From Candidatus Uhrbacteria bacterium (GTDB taxonomy: Bacteria > Patescibacteriota > Patescibacteriia > 2-12-FULL-60-25), in the NCBI GenBank assembly GCA_016222815.1, contig JACRQE010000004.1:1-64000 (forward strand): 64,000 bases of DNA, written 5' to 3'. The position numbers were made by a program, and so were the translations under genes. Each line of letters begins with the position of its first letter. The stretch's first letter is position 1. A model generated the notes under the pieces. That model did no database searches. It was not told where the DNA came from and saw nothing but the letters and a program-made list of their open reading frames with translations. Below, piece after piece: positions 604 to 63,500 of this stretch.

Positions 604-631
604 GTACGGGCGAATGGTCATTCGCCCCTAC
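604..631. repeat. GTAGGGGC-family palindrome, copy 1 (rplJ-rplL spacer)
   Basis: A 28-bp interrupted palindrome with ends GTACGGGC and GCCCCTAC and inner arms GAATG/CATTC. It occupies half of the short spacer between rplJ and rplL, so it is co-transcribed and would fold as a hairpin in the mRNA. Confidence 0.8.
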
Positions 632-3921: not shown

Positions 3922-3929
3922 ATATCGTT

Positions 3930-4002
3930 TGTCGTCCTGAACTTGTCGAAGGATTTTTTTAAAGGTCCTTCAACTGCGCTTCGCTTCGTTCAGGACGACG
4001 GA
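3930..4002. repeat. Family-2 palindromic repeat, copy A (xseA-xseB spacer)
   Basis: Left arm CGTCCTGAACTTGTCGAAGG and right arm reading back CCTTCAACTGC...GTTCAGGACG, with a T-rich centre. The arms are inverted copies of each other. Related copies occur at 4645, 9071, 9953 and 19085. Confidence 0.75.
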
Positions 4003-5298: not shown

Positions 5299-5324
5299 GT
5301 AGGGGCGGACCGATGCGTCCGCCC
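5299..5324. repeat. GTAGGGGC-family palindrome, copy 2
   Basis: GTAGGGGCGGAC, then a 4-base loop and GTCCGCCC. The outer TAC end is degenerate. It lies between the xseA start and the promoter at 5350. Confidence 0.65.
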
Positions 5325-5349
5325 TGGACCCTCCTGTCGCCCTAAGTTC

Positions 5350-9070: not shown

Positions 9071-9128
9071 TCGTCCTGAACGAAGTCGAAGTATCTTTAA
9101 TAAGGGTCTTTCGACAAGTTCAAGACGA
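9071..9128. repeat. Family-2 palindromic repeat, copy C
   Basis: Left arm CGTCCTGAACGAAGTCGAAG; right arm TCTTTCGACAAGTTCAAGACGA, its inverted copy, about 20 bases later. It fills the gap between the 80-aa gene and the end of the cyclophilin gene. Confidence 0.75.
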
Positions 9129-9141
9129 CAAAAATCTAAAT

Positions 9142-14648: not shown

Positions 14649-14676
14649 GTAGGGGCACGGTGTGCCGTGCCCCTAC
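14649..14676. repeat. GTAGGGGC-family palindrome, copy 3
   Basis: Perfect 28-bp element: GTAGGGGCACGG, 4-base loop, CCGTGCCCCTAC. It lies between the divergent uvrD and DUF4349 genes and overlaps the probable promoter region. Confidence 0.85.
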
Positions 14677-21761: not shown

Positions 21762-22613
21762 CTATTTCTGGCACGTCGGGCAATAATGCGTGCTCCTCTG
21801 CCCGATGACGATGCGTTTGATGGGCGTACCGCAGTCGCGGCATTCCTCCCCTTTCCGTCCATAGACGCGCAAAAAATCCAGGAACTTCCCTTTGCGTCCG
21901 CTAGCATCCACATAATCATTCGCGCTTGTCCCTCCGAGTTCGATGGATTCGCACAACACTTTCTGGATTTCTTTTCCGAGTTTAAGACGTTCTTCTCTGG
22001 TCAACGAGCCTAATCGCCGAGTCGGTCTTATCTTGGCGCGGTGCAAAGCTTCGTCTGCGTAGATATTCCCGACTCCTGCGATGACTTCCTGATTCAAGAG
22101 CGCTACCTTAACCATCCGCGTCTTCGGTGTCTTGAGCCTGTCTGCCAATTCTTCGGCACGCGCCTCCAGCGGCTCCGGTCCGTAACACGCCAACACGGAC
22201 TTCAGTTCCGGGGCTTGGACGAATTTCACGAACCCAAACTTCCGCACGTCCGACCAGACCAAATATTCTGTACGGGCGTGTGCCACACGCCCCGGGCGCA
22301 TAGCATGCGCCCCTACGAAGCAGAACATGGCACTGTCGTGTTTCTTCGGTTCGTATTTCCCGTCCACGAACACGAACCTGCCGGTCATCTTGAGATGCGC
22401 CAACATGGCCGTACCGTCCGTAAAATTCCAGACCAGCAGTTTGGCGCGCCGTGAGATGCTTTTGATTTTTTTGCCCGCGATCGTAACCACAAACTTCTTG
22501 CCCTTTGGAAACTCTCGCCCTGACCGAAAAAGCGTGACTTTCGTCACGGTCTTCCCATGCAGCTTCGCATCAAGCTGTCGTCGTATGGTTTCGACTTCCG
22601 GAAGTTCAGGCAT
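21762..22613 (-). CDS. mutM: Formamidopyrimidine-DNA glycosylase with an in-frame palindromic insert
   Basis: 283 residues. It excises 8-oxoguanine and related lesions and cuts the abasic site. The N-terminal catalytic PELPEVETIRR (Pro2, Glu3), LAHLKMTGRF, VWSDVRKFGFVKF, and the helix-two-turn-helix part LLNQEVIAGVGNIYADEALH are present. The C-terminal zinc finger (CRDCGTPIKRIVIGQRSTHY then CPTC) is complete. Between SAMFCF and TEYLVWSD, where the family has a short DG-type turn, stand about 15 extra residues (VGAHAMRPGRVAHAR). They are encoded exactly by a double GTAGGGGC-type palindrome (22270-22316). The reading frame and all catalytic motifs are kept, so the enzyme is probably active. Confidence 0.96.
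   Translation of the reverse strand: MPELPEVETIRRQLDAKLHGKTVTKVTLFRSGREFPKGKKFVVTIAGKKIKSISRRAKLLVWNFTDGTAMLAHLKMTGRFVFVDGKYEPKKHDSAMFCFVGAHAMRPGRVAHARTEYLVWSDVRKFGFVKFVQAPELKSVLACYGPEPLEARAEELADRLKTPKTRMVKVALLNQEVIAGVGNIYADEALHRAKIRPTRRLGSLTREERLKLGKEIQKVLCESIELGGTSANDYVDASGRKGKFLDFLRVYGRKGEECRDCGTPIKRIVIGQRSTHYCPTCQK
22270..22316. repeat. Double GTAGGGGC-family palindrome inside mutM, copy 4
   Basis: Two fused units: GTACGGGCGTGTG-CCACACGCCCC and GGGCGCATAGCATGCGCCC-CTAC. Outer ends match the intergenic copies. The element is read through in frame by mutM. Confidence 0.85.
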
Positions 22614-27736: not shown

Positions 27737-27764
27737 ATACGGGCGAATAATCATTCGCCCCTAC
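27737..27764. repeat. GTAGGGGC-family palindrome, copy 5
   Basis: ATACGGGCGAATAATCATTC then GCCCCTAC. On the minus strand its GTAG end gives the TAG stop codon of the RNHCP gene. Confidence 0.85.
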
Positions 27765-28077: not shown

Positions 28078-28105
28078 GTACGGGCGAATGATCATTCGCC
28101 CCTAC
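28078..28105. repeat. GTAGGGGC-family palindrome, copy 6
   Basis: GTACGGGCGAATGATCATTC then GCCCCTAC. Differs from copy 5 at two positions. It supplies the TAG stop codon of metG (28104-28102) and lies just upstream of the RNHCP start. Confidence 0.85.
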
Positions 28106-46311: not shown

Positions 46312-46340
46312 GTAGAGGCGGGTTTCAAACACGCCCCTAC
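46312..46340. repeat. GTAGGGGC-family palindrome, copy 7
   Basis: GTAGAGGCGGGTTTCAAACA then CGCCCCTAC; imperfect inner pairing. It lies between the htrA stop and the pyk start. Confidence 0.65.
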
Positions 46341-54585: not shown

Positions 54586-57500
54586 TTAATTATGCACCGC
54601 TCCAAAGGTCTTATGGAACCAATCGTTATCCGGGAACGTACAGGTCGGAGACGGATCCCACGTCATGCCGCTTGGGCACGTGTTGGGTCCGGTATTCAAA
54701 CCCCGCTCCTGACAGCCGACGTAGCACCAATGGCCGCCGCCCTGGTACATGCCATTCCAATACGCCGCTCCATCCGGGACGCTGATGTTGGATGGACCGA
54801 TTGGGGTTGCCGTGTTTGAAGGGTACGTCACGGACGTTGAACCGAATGCGTTCTTCTTCTCGAATTCGCCTTTAGCCGGATCCAAATCTGTGATGTGCCA
54901 ATATTGTCCGCTGCCGGTCTGCGTCTGGACGATCTCAAGGCTATCCCCGACTGCCAAATAGGCTTTCAGGCCCTTGGTCTTGACCATGTTCGATACATCA
55001 CCATCAAGGTTCCACAGATAGAATCCGATTTTGCCTGTATTGAACGGTACATAATTGACATACGAGGTTATCGGACCGAACTGGACGCCTCGACAGTTTT
55101 CCCAATTCGGACCGTCCGAGCATCCACCCGTCTTGTTCGGATCTGCATGCGTGATATCCGCACCGCAAGCGAGGCAGTCCGCATCATTCTTCGTCTTGCA
55201 GAAATCTACGGTTTTACCTTTACCCTGGTTCAGGAGACACTGCACCTTACCCTCGACCGGACAATCCTGCCCGCTGTTCGATGTAGCCGGATCATATGAC
55301 CAACCAGGCAATTTCTCACCTGCTTTATGCAGACATATCGCCCTGTTATAGGGAGCATCGCCCAAATCCCAATTGCCTTCAACCCCCGGCCTGAACGGAT
55401 TGATGTCGCGCGTGCAATGATGGCCATCTGCGGTCGGCTCGGGCCAATTGCAGGTATTCCAGGTTTTTTCGGTCGCATTACCGCTCGATCCGGGGATGGT
55501 AAAGCCCCTCGGCAAGATTGTGTGCAGCGTTATGTTCCCGATCTGACCGAAGGAATTCCAATTGACCGCTACATATGCCCGGCCATTCTCCGGCCTCGGG
55601 AAAAGGTAGATTTCTCCTTTGGGGATCTTCTGCTTATACGTCGTCCAAGAGAAGATGTCGCTTGTGTAGGGGTGGTAACCGCCCAATGCCCCTTCATCCA
55701 GATCGTAGTCCATGTTGAATGTCGGAGCATTTCCTTCGTAGCAGCCTCCCTGCGGCCGCGTTGTGACGCCGGTGCAGACGTTATCGTCGTACATGTCCAC
55801 GACCAACCTATAACTGTCGCATGCGACATTGAAATTCACCGCCTTGAACGTGAACCAACCATTCGCATCAGTGAAAGCCTCATCCGTCTTGATGCCTTTA
55901 TACATGAGCGACACGCGCGCATTGGGCACAACCTGCAGGAACACCGCGTCCCAAACCCGACCCTCAATCACCCCCGTGCCCGTCTCTTCACTGCATTTCT
56001 TGCATCCGCCGTATTGGCAGGTATTGGCGCATGTCGCAAGCCCCAACCAACCATAATCATATCCCAGCTGTTTGCAGGTCACGGCCACATTGTTTTGCGT
56101 CAAACCGTCTTTGCCGTCGCACTGTTCCGGCCCGTTCTTGATGCCATCGCCGCAGTAGCCTCCGGCCGAAGCCAGCCATTTGCAGGATTGCGAACATGAG
56201 AGACAGCTGGAGTTGTAATCCGCATTGCATGTCGGCGAACCGTTCTGCAGGCCGTTGTCACATTCCTCCACTGCGGCATTCAGGAAGCCGTCGCCGCACA
56301 CGTTCTTCCGGCATGATTTAAGGCACGCCTTGTTGTCCCCATTATTCCCTCCGTCGTCGCACTCTTCATTCGCGTCCTTGATGCCGTCCCCGCATGCTCC
56401 GACCGGGACGCACTCCGTCCAGCAGTTCCACTGGCAGGCGCTGGATGAGCCCGGCGCCTTGCAAGTCCGCACATGCTGGGTTTCGCGCTTGATGCCGTCG
56501 GTCCCGGTGTAAGTCAGTCCGGCGCAAGATGCGAATACCGAATGCTTCTTGCCGTCGTCGTACTTCATGTTGCTCATGGCGTTCGCCCCGCTGCATGTCG
56601 TATTTGGCGTACCCGGCAACGGAATGACTGGCTGATTTTGCCCGATCTGCAGAGGTATGATCGTATTCTGTTGCTGTCCAATCTTCTGTAGCTGTATCAG
56701 GTTGTAATATGTCTGGGTATTTATCTGCGGATCGGATTTTAACTTGGTGTAGTTCAACGGCGCGGCTTCTGCGCTTGGGATCAGCAAGTGGTCAAGCACG
56801 CTGGCCGCGATGTCTTTTCCGGTCGTAGCCAAATTCTTGTACCACTCTATCCCATGCCCATTCATGGCCACGGCCGTGCTTCCGCATTCGACGTTGGTCG
56901 CGCAATCCGCATCCGTGTCGCACGGCGTGCTTGTTCCGACGCACATGGCTTTAGGCGTCTGTTCTGATTGGCCGTCGCACTGTTCAGATCCGTTGACCAT
57001 CTGGTCGCCGCAATACGGGCCTATGCCCTTACAGTCGAAGCTGCATGTGTTGGTGTTAAGTTTATCGCTCCACTTGCCGTTATCAGCCCCTTGATCGCAC
57101 GTCTCACCTGCATCCATCATGCCGTTGCCGCAATAACCGCCGTATCCCTGGCAACCCACTGCGCAATGGCCATATGACCCGTTCAATACGCCATCGTCGC
57201 ACGCTTCGGCAGCCACACAGTCAGCATTGCCCGAACAGTCTACATTTGTAATACAACCCTGCACCGCATTATTCGAACAATGCTTGTCGATGCGCCCGTT
57301 GCCGCACTTCTGGTCGGCGACGCACTGCGGATGCTTTGGATCGATATCGTATTTCGTGCAGGCCGTACACGATGTCTGCTGGTGACCTGGTTCATTTTGT
57401 GCTGTAGTACATGATTTTGACCCGGTCTCCCCCAATTCGCAAAACTCTCCAGTATTCAGCACCCCGTCGCCGCAGACGCCCTTCTCGGCCAAAGCCACGT

Positions 57501-60500
57501 TATTGCAGATATCAGCGTATTTGAACGTCCCGCCGATCGGCCTGCAGACATCCTTGACTGACGGCACGTCCTGACAGGCATCGTTCGGGGCATTGCACAC
57601 CGCGGCATCAGCCGTGCAGTCCTGGCCGCCGACCTTGCAGACCTTGCAATTCGCGGGATTACTGCAGGTCCGGCACAGGTAATCCTGCTTGTTGCCCTGG
57701 GCATCCATGCAATACCGATCGTTGTTCGCGCATTTATACATGACCGTCGGTAATTTCGGATACCACCAATCCGTCTGCTGTGCAGTCTGCGGTTTGACCT
57801 CGAATTCAGAAGACAACTCGTACTGCGTCCCGCCGGCGAATGATTGGTATTGGTACAGCCGCGAGACCGAGAACGGATTGGCAGAATCGTATTGCGGGCA
57901 AATATACTGGAAATTCTTGGGATTCCAACATGTTGCCGGGTCGATATCTGCGTTCTTCACCCACGAACCGTTCACGAGCGAACCGCCTTGGCAGGTCTGG
58001 TCTGTCGCCTGTCCGGCGCACTCGCTGTTTGCTTGGCACGGTTTGCCGTCCTCGCAGCGTCCGCACGTCACGAAGCGGTTCACCGGATCCTTGGGCCAGG
58101 CGTTCGCCCCCGTGCTTAACTCTTCGGTCCACGACTTCCAGATGGAGTTGGACAATCCTTTGATGAAAGTCCCGGCCGTCAACTGCGGATATGTCCCGGG
58201 CTGGGAACCGAGTTTCTTGATGATGCTCTGGAAATCTGCCATGCGGACCGTGTCCCGCGCCATCTTTGCCTTGTTCGAATCGCAGAACAGCATCTTCCCC
58301 GCCTCTTGGGCTACGCACTCGTAATCCGCTGAACAAGTTATCGGTTGATGCTCATCGGTCAGATACACGTCGCTGCTCGAGTATTGGTTGCCGTTTACCA
58401 CGTGGCAGGTGTTGCTCTGGCCGTTGATGTTTATGTTGAACGCCAGGTACTTGACCATCTGGTTGTATATCTCAAGCGTTTCCGGTTTGGCGTCAGGATT
58501 GTGCGAGATGACGTAGATGTTCGAATAGATGGAACCCGCAACATCCGGCTGGTTGGCCGCCGCGATGTACAAAGTATTGTCGTCCTGCAATGCCGGGTAA
58601 CCGTCGACTAAAGTTTGTTTCGGATTGCCCAAGAAACCCTTTGACGCATACCACTCTGCCGGCGACAGATGCATCGGATTCTCAGCGATGCGCACGCCGA
58701 TGCCGTCGGTCTTGAGGTCCGGCCTGTCAGCCCCGAAAGTGAACAGGTATTGGCGCAGGATGCCGTTCACCTGATCGATTTGGGTCCTCGGCACCGGATT
58801 TATAGCCAAAGCCGGCAAATCATCATTTTGCTTATGTTCGACCCCTGCATCCCTGCAATACATGGTCGAGAAATTATAGAACAGCACCTTATTGATTATC
58901 GGATCCGGATTGGTGAAGGTATTGCTCTGCAGGTTGCTGACGGCCTTACCATGCGCCCAAGCGTTGTTGGTCCAGGTCAAGGAATCCTGGAACGGCATGT
59001 CACCCAACGCCGGCCACGGATTCTCGCAGACCAATACCACGACCGGAGCCGATCCGTAGACCGTAGCGCTGGTCGAACTCGGTACGTTTATCGTGTCGTT
59101 CGTGATCTTAATCCCGGCAGTCAGGATGGCCGTACCGTTGAGCTGCGTGGATGCGCTCGGTTGCTGCGTCACGAAACAGGATTTCTGTGCTTCGGGCAAA
59201 GTGAAGCTTCCGCAGTACCAGACTAAATCCTTGTTGTTCGACGTCCAAGGCTGCCATGTCCATTGGTATTCAGCGGTCGAACTTAGCGGTATAGCCTGTC
59301 CGTTTGCGATGGATTGCGGTTGGGCATCGAAGAACCTCTCTTCCGGCACATTCCCAGGGTTATTGAACAGGAAAGGATGTTCTTGGCCCTCCACCTCCGG
59401 CGGTTTATGCAGACCCGTCGTATCCGAGATGGTGATGACGTTTATGGCGCAAATCTTGTCGTTCGTGGTGAATTCCCAGGTTCTATCGCCGTCATGCACC
59501 ACGCCCGTCTTGGTCTTTATGCCCTTTCGGTTGTTTTTGTCGGTATTGTCATCCAGTTTGTCGTCGCCCGTCAGTCTCACGCGATAAGTCGTGTTCGGAG
59601 CCAATGCATGGTCCAGGTTGAACCCGAACTTGGTCGTGCCGTTCGGGTTGCCCAAAGGCGCCAGCTGTCCGGTCACGCCGCCCACGCAGAATTTCTCGGC
59701 TACCGCCGGTCCGCCCATGATCCAATTGACGAGTTTGTGCCAATAGTAGACTACCTTGTTCCACAAACCGGACTTAGGCGTTTCCGCAACTGCTATTTCC
59801 TTAGTCCCATCCGGACACTTTGGATCGCTGGTCTTCAAATCTACCTGGAAGTTGTTCACCACCGAGGACGAATCCATCACATCCCCAAAGTCCAGCGTTA
59901 CCTGCACGTTCCGGCAGATGCCCGATCCGGTCGGATAATTATTGGTTAGATACGGCCGACGGCGGCAGCAGCCAAACGCGTCCAAGCCCCGCGGATTATT
60001 CTGGTCATCATCCTTACAGCTCGATTCGTCCGTATACCCGCATTGCAGTCCATATGTCGATTTGCCGGTTTGGTCCATGAGCACCGCGCTCAAGGTCGAT
60101 GATGACCTTCCTGTTTCCTCATCCGGCTCCTTCAGGCCGACGATATAGGCCAACTGCATCCTGTCCACCACATCCGGCACGATACCGTACTTTTTCTTCA
60201 TGACCGCATTCAAGACGGTCGAACTCAAAGGACCGGGATCCTGTGCGTAAGCTTGGGGATACTTGATCTCATCCGCCACCTTGTCCGAGGACGCACCCAC
60301 TTCGCACTGTTCGCCTGCCTCCAAGATGCCGTTGCCGCAGAAACTTGGCGACAAGGTCTTAGCAGCCGAAGAATAGGCCGGAGACGAACCCTGGAACAGA
60401 CAAATTTTACTGCATCCTGTGAGTCCGTTCAGCGGTCCGTCATCGCAATCCTTGCCGATTTCCATGAGTCCATTGCCGCAACAATTCTTGGTCTCCCCTG

Positions 60501-63500
60501 CCGTGCAGGCCAGGACACCCGTATGCAGGCAAAGCGCAGGGTCACACCCCAACGGGAATTGCGGCTCGCCGTTCACGAGTTTGCCTTCGCAAGTCTCCCC
60601 GGGTTCCAGTTTTCCGTTGCCGCACACGGCCGCCAAGAAATTACCCGATTGCGAGCCCTCATGCAGACAAGACGAACTACAACCGTCGCCATCCGTCACG
60701 TTCCCGTCGTCGCAATCCTTGCCGTCGCCCAGGACATCCGAATTGCCGCACGTACTCTTGCCGGCTTGGGCGCCCAGATGGCGGCAACTGGCCGAACATC
60801 CGCGGTAGTCATGCATAGTGCATGTGCCGTGGGCCGTCTCGCACGCCAGTTTGGACGGTGCATCGTTGCATGGGGAGAATTCCGGGACCGGAGACGTATC
60901 CGTAGCAGAGCTGCCGCCCACGCACGTCAATCCGAAGTCGCAAGCCTCCCCTTTCTGTACGTCAACCGTACCGTTCCCGCAGGTTCCGCCGACGGTTGAG
61001 AGCGCCACCGGTTTGAACAGGCATTTGTTCGCATCGCACATATCCGCCCCGTCTATCGATGGTTCGCATTCTTCGCCTGCTTTTGCCCCTGGTGCGAATT
61101 GAGTGCACGCATCCCCTTTCGGGGTAACACCCGTCGTCTGACCGGGCGGTGTCTTGCAAAAGTTGGTGTCCGTTGTCTCGATTACGCCGTTTCCGCAAAC
61201 CGCTACTTTGCCATACAATCCTCCGGCTCCGGTCGCCAGGCAGTTGGCCGTGCATCCAAGAGGCAGCTTGCTCCGGTCAGTCTTCACGAAATCATTATCA
61301 ATCTTGAAGAAATCAGCCACCAATGCGTCGCTCGTGCTCCATTGCGCTCCGCCCGTGATCACCAGTTTCTGGCCGTTCGGATCGCATTCATCGGCTTTGC
61401 CGAATGGCGTGGCGATGAAAGCCTGCCGTCCGTCCACGCTTGTCTCGAATTTTTCGACCGGTATCACGTCCACGCGGTCAGCTTTGCAGAACGCATCCGC
61501 CCCGGTCTTCACCCTGAATTTCCATACGAATCCGTTCGGATGGTTGGTCCCGGTCATGGGCACGCCGTTCAACCCTTTGATGCCCGTGTTCTCGTGCGTC
61601 TGTGGATCCACCGCGTTCGGACCGCCACGTAAAAGCACGAAGTAGAAAGCCCCGGGTTCGAACACGGCGTGGTCGATCTCGATATCCGTTCCTCCGACCA
61701 GATTGATGCCTGTCGCCTGGATCGGTGGGTCAAGCTCGGATTCGTAGCAATTTTCGTTATGGCATTTGCGGATCACGATATTCCCCGGCTTGGATACGCT
61801 GGCCGCATCCAATTTGCTCGAGAACATCGCCCAAACCAGCGCGTTGCTGCAGGCGATATTGCAGTCCGGTCCGTGTGCCGTCACCTGTGGGGGCAAAAAG
61901 TTAACGAACATACGCCCCGTTCCCTTGAGCGAAGTCTGGACCAGCGCCGCGTTGATATCCACCGGCACATCCCCTGTCTCCGAATTGCCCATGCCTTTCT
62001 GTACGCATTTTCCGTAGCCGTTGCCTGCCTGGTCGTTCGAAATCGAGCCGCGCGTGTCCCCGGCTGACCACGCCCAGTTGAACAGATCGCAATTCAGGAC
62101 GATGCATTTATCGTTGACGTCAGTCGGCACCGCTTCATACGGTTCGGTCACGCCCGTCTCATGGAATGTGAACGGATTCGGCACCACGTTGACCGCTCCT
62201 ATCTGCGTCGGTTCCGTGCTGGCGCGCGTTTTGAATCTGAAACAGTAGCCCAGCGCTTCGTTATTCGGCCCTTTACCGCAACTCGCCATCTCGATCATGT
62301 TGGCGCCGGTCTCGCCCTTGCCTTTCACGTTCGTGGATACGATGACCGAGTAGGTGGAGCTGGTGTCGAGTTTGATCGAAGGCTTGAGCGTCACCACGTC
62401 CTGCTGGTCGTTTTCGGCCACCAGGCTCAAGGCGAATTCCGCGGCTTGGGTCTTGGCGCACGGGTTGCTCCCCGTGTCCGTGCATTTCAGGATCTTGAAG
62501 TTAGCCGGAATCACCGAAGATTGTTCCAGCTTCTGCGAAAAACGCATCTTTATCGCCGCATCAATCGGCGCCTGGTCCCCGCCCGCCCGCCCGATCCAAG
62601 GCGAAGGCGACGGCGTTGGAGCCGGCGTCTGTTCCGGTGCGCACTGTTCGATGACATATGGCGCCAACGGGATAAGCCCCGTGGACATCTGCCAGGCGAA
62701 TTCGGCCTTGGTTGAGACGGCCTCGCACGTGTCGTTGATGGACTTGCACTGGCCGCTGGCGCAACACTGGAACTTGTCCGGTGGTCCGCAGACCTCCGGT
62801 GCTTCGTTGCAGTTCTTGACCTGGAAGTTCATGCTGTTCGATTTTTGCGCCTGGGCGATGATGGTTACCGGGCCGGTCATGGCGTTCTTGGGCACGCTGG
62901 TCTTGACCGACTGGTTGGTGTTCGAATCCACAGCCGCGTTCTTGCTCGACGAGAAAGTCACGAGCGGTTTGTCGAAGCCGAAACGGTCGCCGTAGATATT
63001 CACCGGCGTACCCTCCGGACCGATCGCCGGATCTATGGCACAGATGCCGGGCTTGGGTTGGAGCTTGGTGTCGATCTGGAATTCAAGGCTGTTCGATTCT
63101 TTGCCGTCAGCCCGTTTGACCTTTACCTGGTATGTCCCGTCCGCCGTAGGTTGATTGTTCTTGAACACGGAAGGGACTTTGATCACGATGTTATCGTCGC
63201 GCCAAAAACCGGCCGCGCAAGCTGGCGGAAAAGACGTATCGCCCACCGCCTCCAATCCCTGTCCCTGGAAGATGACTGTCCCGACGTTGTATCCGAAATA
63301 TTTTCCGGACAGCGTGATGTATTCCTGCTGGGGTCCTGTCGCCGGTCCGATAGCCGCCAGTTGCGGTCCTTGTCCCAAATCCTTTTCCAGCACTTCGAAC
63401 TCCACGGCATTGCTCGCGCCTTGACCGGTCAGAACTTTGACCTGGTACGGACCCGTGTTGACCACCGGAATCTTGAAATGGGCTTTTGCGTCAGACCAGG

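Follow-up and report, generated by a model that had tools for sequence, protein, structure and literature searches.

How a dispersed palindrome could come to lie in frame within the gene of a DNA-repair enzyme, and what it would do to that enzyme, is the question raised by this locus. The gene is mutM (formamidopyrimidine-DNA glycosylase), on the minus strand at 21762..22613 of the window, the 64,000-nt stretch of DNA that was analysed. The first-pass annotation, made from the letters of the window, had placed a palindrome in frame inside mutM, and we find the ORF list to agree, as the gene is open from end to end (283 aa) and the palindrome occupies exactly 47 nt at 22270-22316 (minus strand), where it encodes VGAHAMRPGRVAHAR(T). 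The captured loop of the protein reads VGAHAMRPGRVAHART and stands between MFCF and EYLVWSDVRKFG; by the ORF list and Pfam, MutM is otherwise intact.

The mutM insert is a dimer of GTAG-tagged REPs

Folded as single-stranded DNA, the 47-nt element forms two 8-bp hairpins separated by one base, with an unpaired GTAG before the first and an unpaired GTAC after the second. The first hairpin spans 22294..22312 (arms 22312-22305 and 22301-22294) and the second 22274..22292 (arms 22292-22285 and 22281-22274), both on the minus strand and each with a 3-nt loop. The fold has a z of -4.3, and 1 of 200 shuffles was equally good. Two palindromic units with ends that match dispersed copies had been described from the window, and the counts confirm this description: GTAGGGGC is observed 8 times in the window versus 1.16 expected, with no shuffle reaching 8, and genome-wide GTAGGGGCG occurs 81 times versus 15 for the reversed control. 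Searching with the complete palindrome pattern yields 58 oriented matches, against 0 for the reversed-pattern control. Two matches to GTAGGGGC inside genes, at L133 (4525) and L151 (1526), are attributed to chance and are not palindromes.

In the genome under study (G000; 8 contigs), 33 copies have exact ends. The monomers measure 27-29 nt, apart from one of 36 nt, the inverted dimers are 46-50 nt long, and stem types are few throughout. The window holds 28-nt monomers of the form GTAG...GTAC at 604..631 (minus strand; outside any credible gene) and at 28078..28105 (minus strand), and one of the form GTAG...CTAC at 14649..14676 (plus strand; intergenic). Degenerate copies lie at 5299..5326 (plus strand; right end degenerate), upstream of where a minus-strand gene probably starts, at 27737..27764 (minus strand; a monomer with a degenerate GTAC end), and at 46312..46340 (minus strand), just upstream of a pyruvate-kinase-like ORF. 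With an unpaired GTAG tag beside a short stem-loop, a dispersed multicopy family that includes inverted dimers, and a RAYT-like gene with associated REPs in the same genome, the mutM element belongs, as a dimer, to the GTAG-tagged REPs, mobile palindromes of a known class. No strict insertion target was found among the 33 exact-ended REPs, the flanks of which are A/T-rich and lack only A at position -1 (0/33).

A RAYT-like ORF carries REPs of its own

The RAYT-like ORF of G000 lies in L142 (1229-1744) and matches NF047646 with an E value of 8e-16 and 58 bits, below the curated cut-off of 80. It has the HUH motif PNHFHG, one REP inside, and a second REP at its 3′ end whose GTAG gives the stop codon. 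Pfam Y1_Tnp detects only IS200-like fragments at contig ends in G000, the REP-bearing RAYT being below the Pfam threshold. From the known association of the two, it is presumably the RAYT that moves the REPs. RAYT-like ORFs with in-frame GTAG/GTAC-tagged REP sequence were also seen beyond L142, at L165, L230, L231, L232, L234 and L236; together with L142 these ORFs come from about six genera of the family and have the REP in the loop directly after the HUH motif, and the NF047646 match breaks at this same point in several further genomes. Such a REP is possibly a cis-acting element carried by its own transposase gene. The contig ends in L001, L002, L003 and L004 (C7, C1, C8 and C3) lie within IS200-like Y1 transposase copies, which probably caused the assembly breaks at these four ends.

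The enzyme fold is predicted to be retained around the insert

The Pfam domains Fapy_DNA_glyco, H2TH and zf-FPG_IleRS all score above cut-off in MutM. In agreement with the earlier reading that catalytic and zinc-finger residues are kept, MutM has P2, E3, K58, R124-F126-G127, N183, C258 and C278, which are invariant across 38 relatives (39 aligned sequences), as well as C261 and C281, which are nearly invariant. Comparison with the mutM of G028 gives a pN of 0.18 and a pS of 0.68, and a pN/pS of ~0.12 that is indicative only, with synonymous sites near saturation; at the level of sequence comparison these values support purifying selection on mutM.

The AlphaFold2 model of MutM is a confident Fpg fold (mean pLDDT 95.5) in which the insert lies between strands 93-100 and 115-122, and the pLDDT drops to about 66 at residues 101-110. 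That the insert might be a loop had been raised earlier, and is borne out by this dip between two strands. The best PDB match of the model is 1r2y (TM 0.88), and the nearest solved structures are MutM-DNA complexes. MutM is predicted to be a standard Fpg in which the insert forms a hairpin loop modelled at low confidence, and we infer that the REP-bearing enzyme would be catalytically active. At the same site the PDB homologue 1L1T (Geobacillus) reads FCFTDGSELRYRDVRKFG, a turn of few residues, and most MutM proteins of the family likewise have a turn of few residues there.

The MutM site is filled differently in relatives

The segment had been expected to be unique to this genome, which did not prove to be so. 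Relatives from the same genus (G001, G002 and G003) and from other genera (G006 and G028) were compared, and in two of them, G006 and G002, a GTAG REP occupies this position of MutM as well. In G006, the site reads GTAGGGGC...GCCCGTAC with other stem bases and a nested segment, and in G002, a contig begins within a palindrome ending GCCCGTAC at the same place. The opposite pattern, with a homologous, palindrome-free 15-residue loop in all close relatives, was not found either, most having the short turn. When the order was searched for a REP beside the MutM DxRxFG motif, the window was the sole match, as this family is the only one in the order and the element of G006 exceeds the gap of the pattern by 2 nt.

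The mutM loop of G003 contains an unrelated dispersed repeat, CGTACCGCGTACC, with 33 matches in G003 versus 1 in the control. G028 has a long MutM loop that is not a dispersed repeat and has structure at chance level (z -0.45), and on these two grounds it was rejected as a decayed REP. Where this closest homologue might have shown the ancestral empty site of the G000 mutM, it has another long loop. The MutM of G028 (L006) has about 74% identity to that of G000 and is its sister with 100/99 support; a transfer of mutM between genera (G028 versus G000) is suggested.

In-frame REPs occur in thirteen genes

A genome-wide search for further in-frame copies, as proposed earlier, adds twelve ORFs to mutM. 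The hosts are mutM, a Y-family DNA polymerase (dinB-type), leuS, valS, smc, gyrB, guanylate kinase (gmk), a UvrD/PcrA-type helicase, a sugar-phosphate nucleotidyltransferase, three glycosyltransferases and the RAYT. The REPs are read in the VGA.. frame in 10/13 cases and in the GRG.. frame in 3/13, and never in the TAG-stop frame (0/13). Eleven of the 33 exact-ended REPs lie within these thirteen ORFs, the leuS and gyrB copies having a degenerate end. In the uvrD-type gene, removal of the 27-nt element from the G000 sequence leaves a gap-free match to G002, where the site is empty, which shows a clean insertion without target duplication.

Several of these loops are occupied by other repeats in sister species. 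CGTACC repeats take the place of the G000 REP in the leuS loop of G003 and, in G001 as well as G003, in the nucleotidyltransferase loop and the uvrD-type loop; in G003 all three of these loops carry the repeat that is also in its mutM loop, CGTACCGCGTACC. In nine 100-nt loops of G003, 4 CGTACC loci are seen versus 0.014 expected (~25 loci, 1.6-Mb genome), a rough, hand-made estimate that is conditional, as the loops were picked because G000 has a REP there. The presence of unrelated repeats in the same loops argues that tolerance, and not a transposase target, sets the position. CGTACC(N)CGTACC is a second dispersed short repeat, often in tandem, with 28 matches in G000, 33 in G003 and 0-1 in the control, and it stands in frame within loops of several enzymes in G001 and G003.

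The GTAG REPs in the Y-family polymerase loop of G000 and G002 lie at an identical nucleotide position and between matching flanks, yet their stems differ, two compensated pair changes included; the loop of G003, G001 and G028 holds a different palindrome of CCCGGACTTGATCCGGGATCC type. This palindromic repeat is of a third kind; it lies in frame in L199 (G003), L200 (G001) and L204 (G028) and reads VIPDFIRDSE. In gyrB, a single REP with the same degenerate GAAG end is present in G000 and G002, which indicates, from sequence, that a REP lying in frame can be passed on when species split.

Origin of the mutM insert

The best explanation of these observations, to which we assign a probability of roughly 0.85, is that a few tolerant loops capture small mobile repeats neutrally, with selection as the filter. 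A non-autonomous GTAG-tagged REP dimer, moved by the resident RAYT, would have inserted in the beta-hairpin turn of MutM, and the frame-keeping insertion would have persisted as a flexible loop at the surface that affects the enzyme hardly or not at all, since two of the three frames of the 47-nt element are free of stops and extra residues are tolerated in the turn. We infer that the mutM insert is neutral. Mobile REPs would insert at many places, with those that break a frame or a fold then removed; the same filter, acting genome-wide, would leave a few tolerant core-enzyme loops that are refilled across species by unrelated small repeats, so that the same loops are filled repeatedly. What counts against capture is the length of the element, as 47 is not divisible by 3 and the present mutM frame thus also needed a 1- or 2-nt adjustment at a junction.

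A strong rival, which may be combined with the main account for those carriers that share a nucleotide position (mutM and the Y-family polymerase), is inheritance with stem exchange. The three MutM REPs ending GCCCGTAC could be one old insertion rather than three events, inherited by G000, G002 and G006, with the stem alone exchanged later (REP-for-REP or by arm copying). The left boundary TTY|GTAGGGGC common to G000 and G006 and the right end common to all three speak for this, as do the position and flanks shared by the dinB-type REPs of G000 and G002 despite their different stems, and the probably inherited gyrB copy. G001 and G003, of the same genus, are however without a GTAG REP in mutM, the MutM tree places G002 and G006 without resolution, and the right-end reading frame differs between G000 and G006, such that we rate a single ancestral insertion at somewhat less than an even chance. 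A more speculative and rather unlikely extension is that core-enzyme loops are long-lived landing pads in which the occupant repeat is swapped for a REP or an unrelated repeat with the frame kept, the RAYTs keeping their own internal REP within the exchange; if so, small repeats would continually supply reduced genomes with new protein loops.

Selective value of the insert, as an expression-tuning mRNA or DNA hairpin, a gyrase binding site or a useful protein loop, would fit the strong hairpins of the mutM element, the RNA and gyrase roles proposed for REPs and their recurrence in repair genes (PMC3733652). We regard it as improbable, as the REP hosts are unrelated enzymes, the loops of sister species hold other repeats or nothing, and the MutM loop is predicted to be flexible. 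Far less credible still is an artefact of assembly or binning: the G000 assembly is fragmented and the G002 contig breaks exactly at the palindrome, yet the insert lies inside a 104-kb contig, in frame and with coding signal on both sides, and the independent genome G006 shows the same arrangement.

Relation to known palindromic repeats

Rickettsia RPE had been put forward as the precedent, and this holds for the capture of small palindromes in frame, which RPE show in many proteins; as to family, the mutM element is a GTAG-tagged REP with a RAYT, and RPE are only an analogue. R. conorii RPE sequences are reported to end in CGTC, not GTAG, and CGTC repeats are without a dedicated transposase (PMC3733652), whereas the mutM element ends in GTAG and GTAC, lacks the CGTC end and is unrelated in sequence. 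The claim that no such case is described for this lineage stands in part: our literature search, of partial coverage, found no paper on REPs in Patescibacteria, although GTAG-tagged REPs inside ORFs, including DNA-repair genes and tRNA synthetases, were published by Di Nocera, De Gregorio and Rocco in 2013, who also described recB of two Xanthomonas species as carrying distinct REPs at nearly the same position (PMC3733652).

The present family resembles those REPs (PMC3733652) in its GTAG ends, 20-50 nt palindromes, dimers, RAYT association, GTAG as stop codons, and copies within DNA-repair genes and tRNA synthetases. It differs in its Patescibacteria host, in that 1/3 of exact-ended copies are intragenic, in mutM as a host, in the filling of the same loops by unrelated repeat families, and in REPs inside RAYT ORFs. 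The REPINs/REPs of Pseudomonas fluorescens SBW25 are likewise paired palindromes presumed to be mobilised in trans by a RAYT, but there only 14/1,067 REP core 16-mers overlap genes (PMC3116915). As far as checked, the new elements are the lineage, the high intragenic share, the loops with unrelated repeats in sister species, and the in-frame REPs in RAYT ORFs of several genera.

'Extragenic' palindromes thus need not be extragenic, as about 1/3 of the copies with exact ends lie in translated sequence, and several of the hosts are enzymes usually regarded as essential. The occurrence of unrelated repeats in the same loops of sister species provides natural replicates for the insertion tolerance of protein sites. 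The set also bears on whether new protein sequence can come from selfish DNA. This question has been raised for Rickettsia, but empty and filled sites have seldom been available together to test it.

Other repeats in the window

Eight degenerate 43-nt repeats, TCGCACTGTTC...GCCGCA, lie at 56110-60629 and resemble repeated Cys-rich motifs of a large minus-strand protein. An inverted pair of a TCCTGAACTTGTCGAAGGA-type repeat is found at 3928-3953 and 9107-9132, the copy at 3928-3953 being close to where a small minus-strand ORF probably begins.
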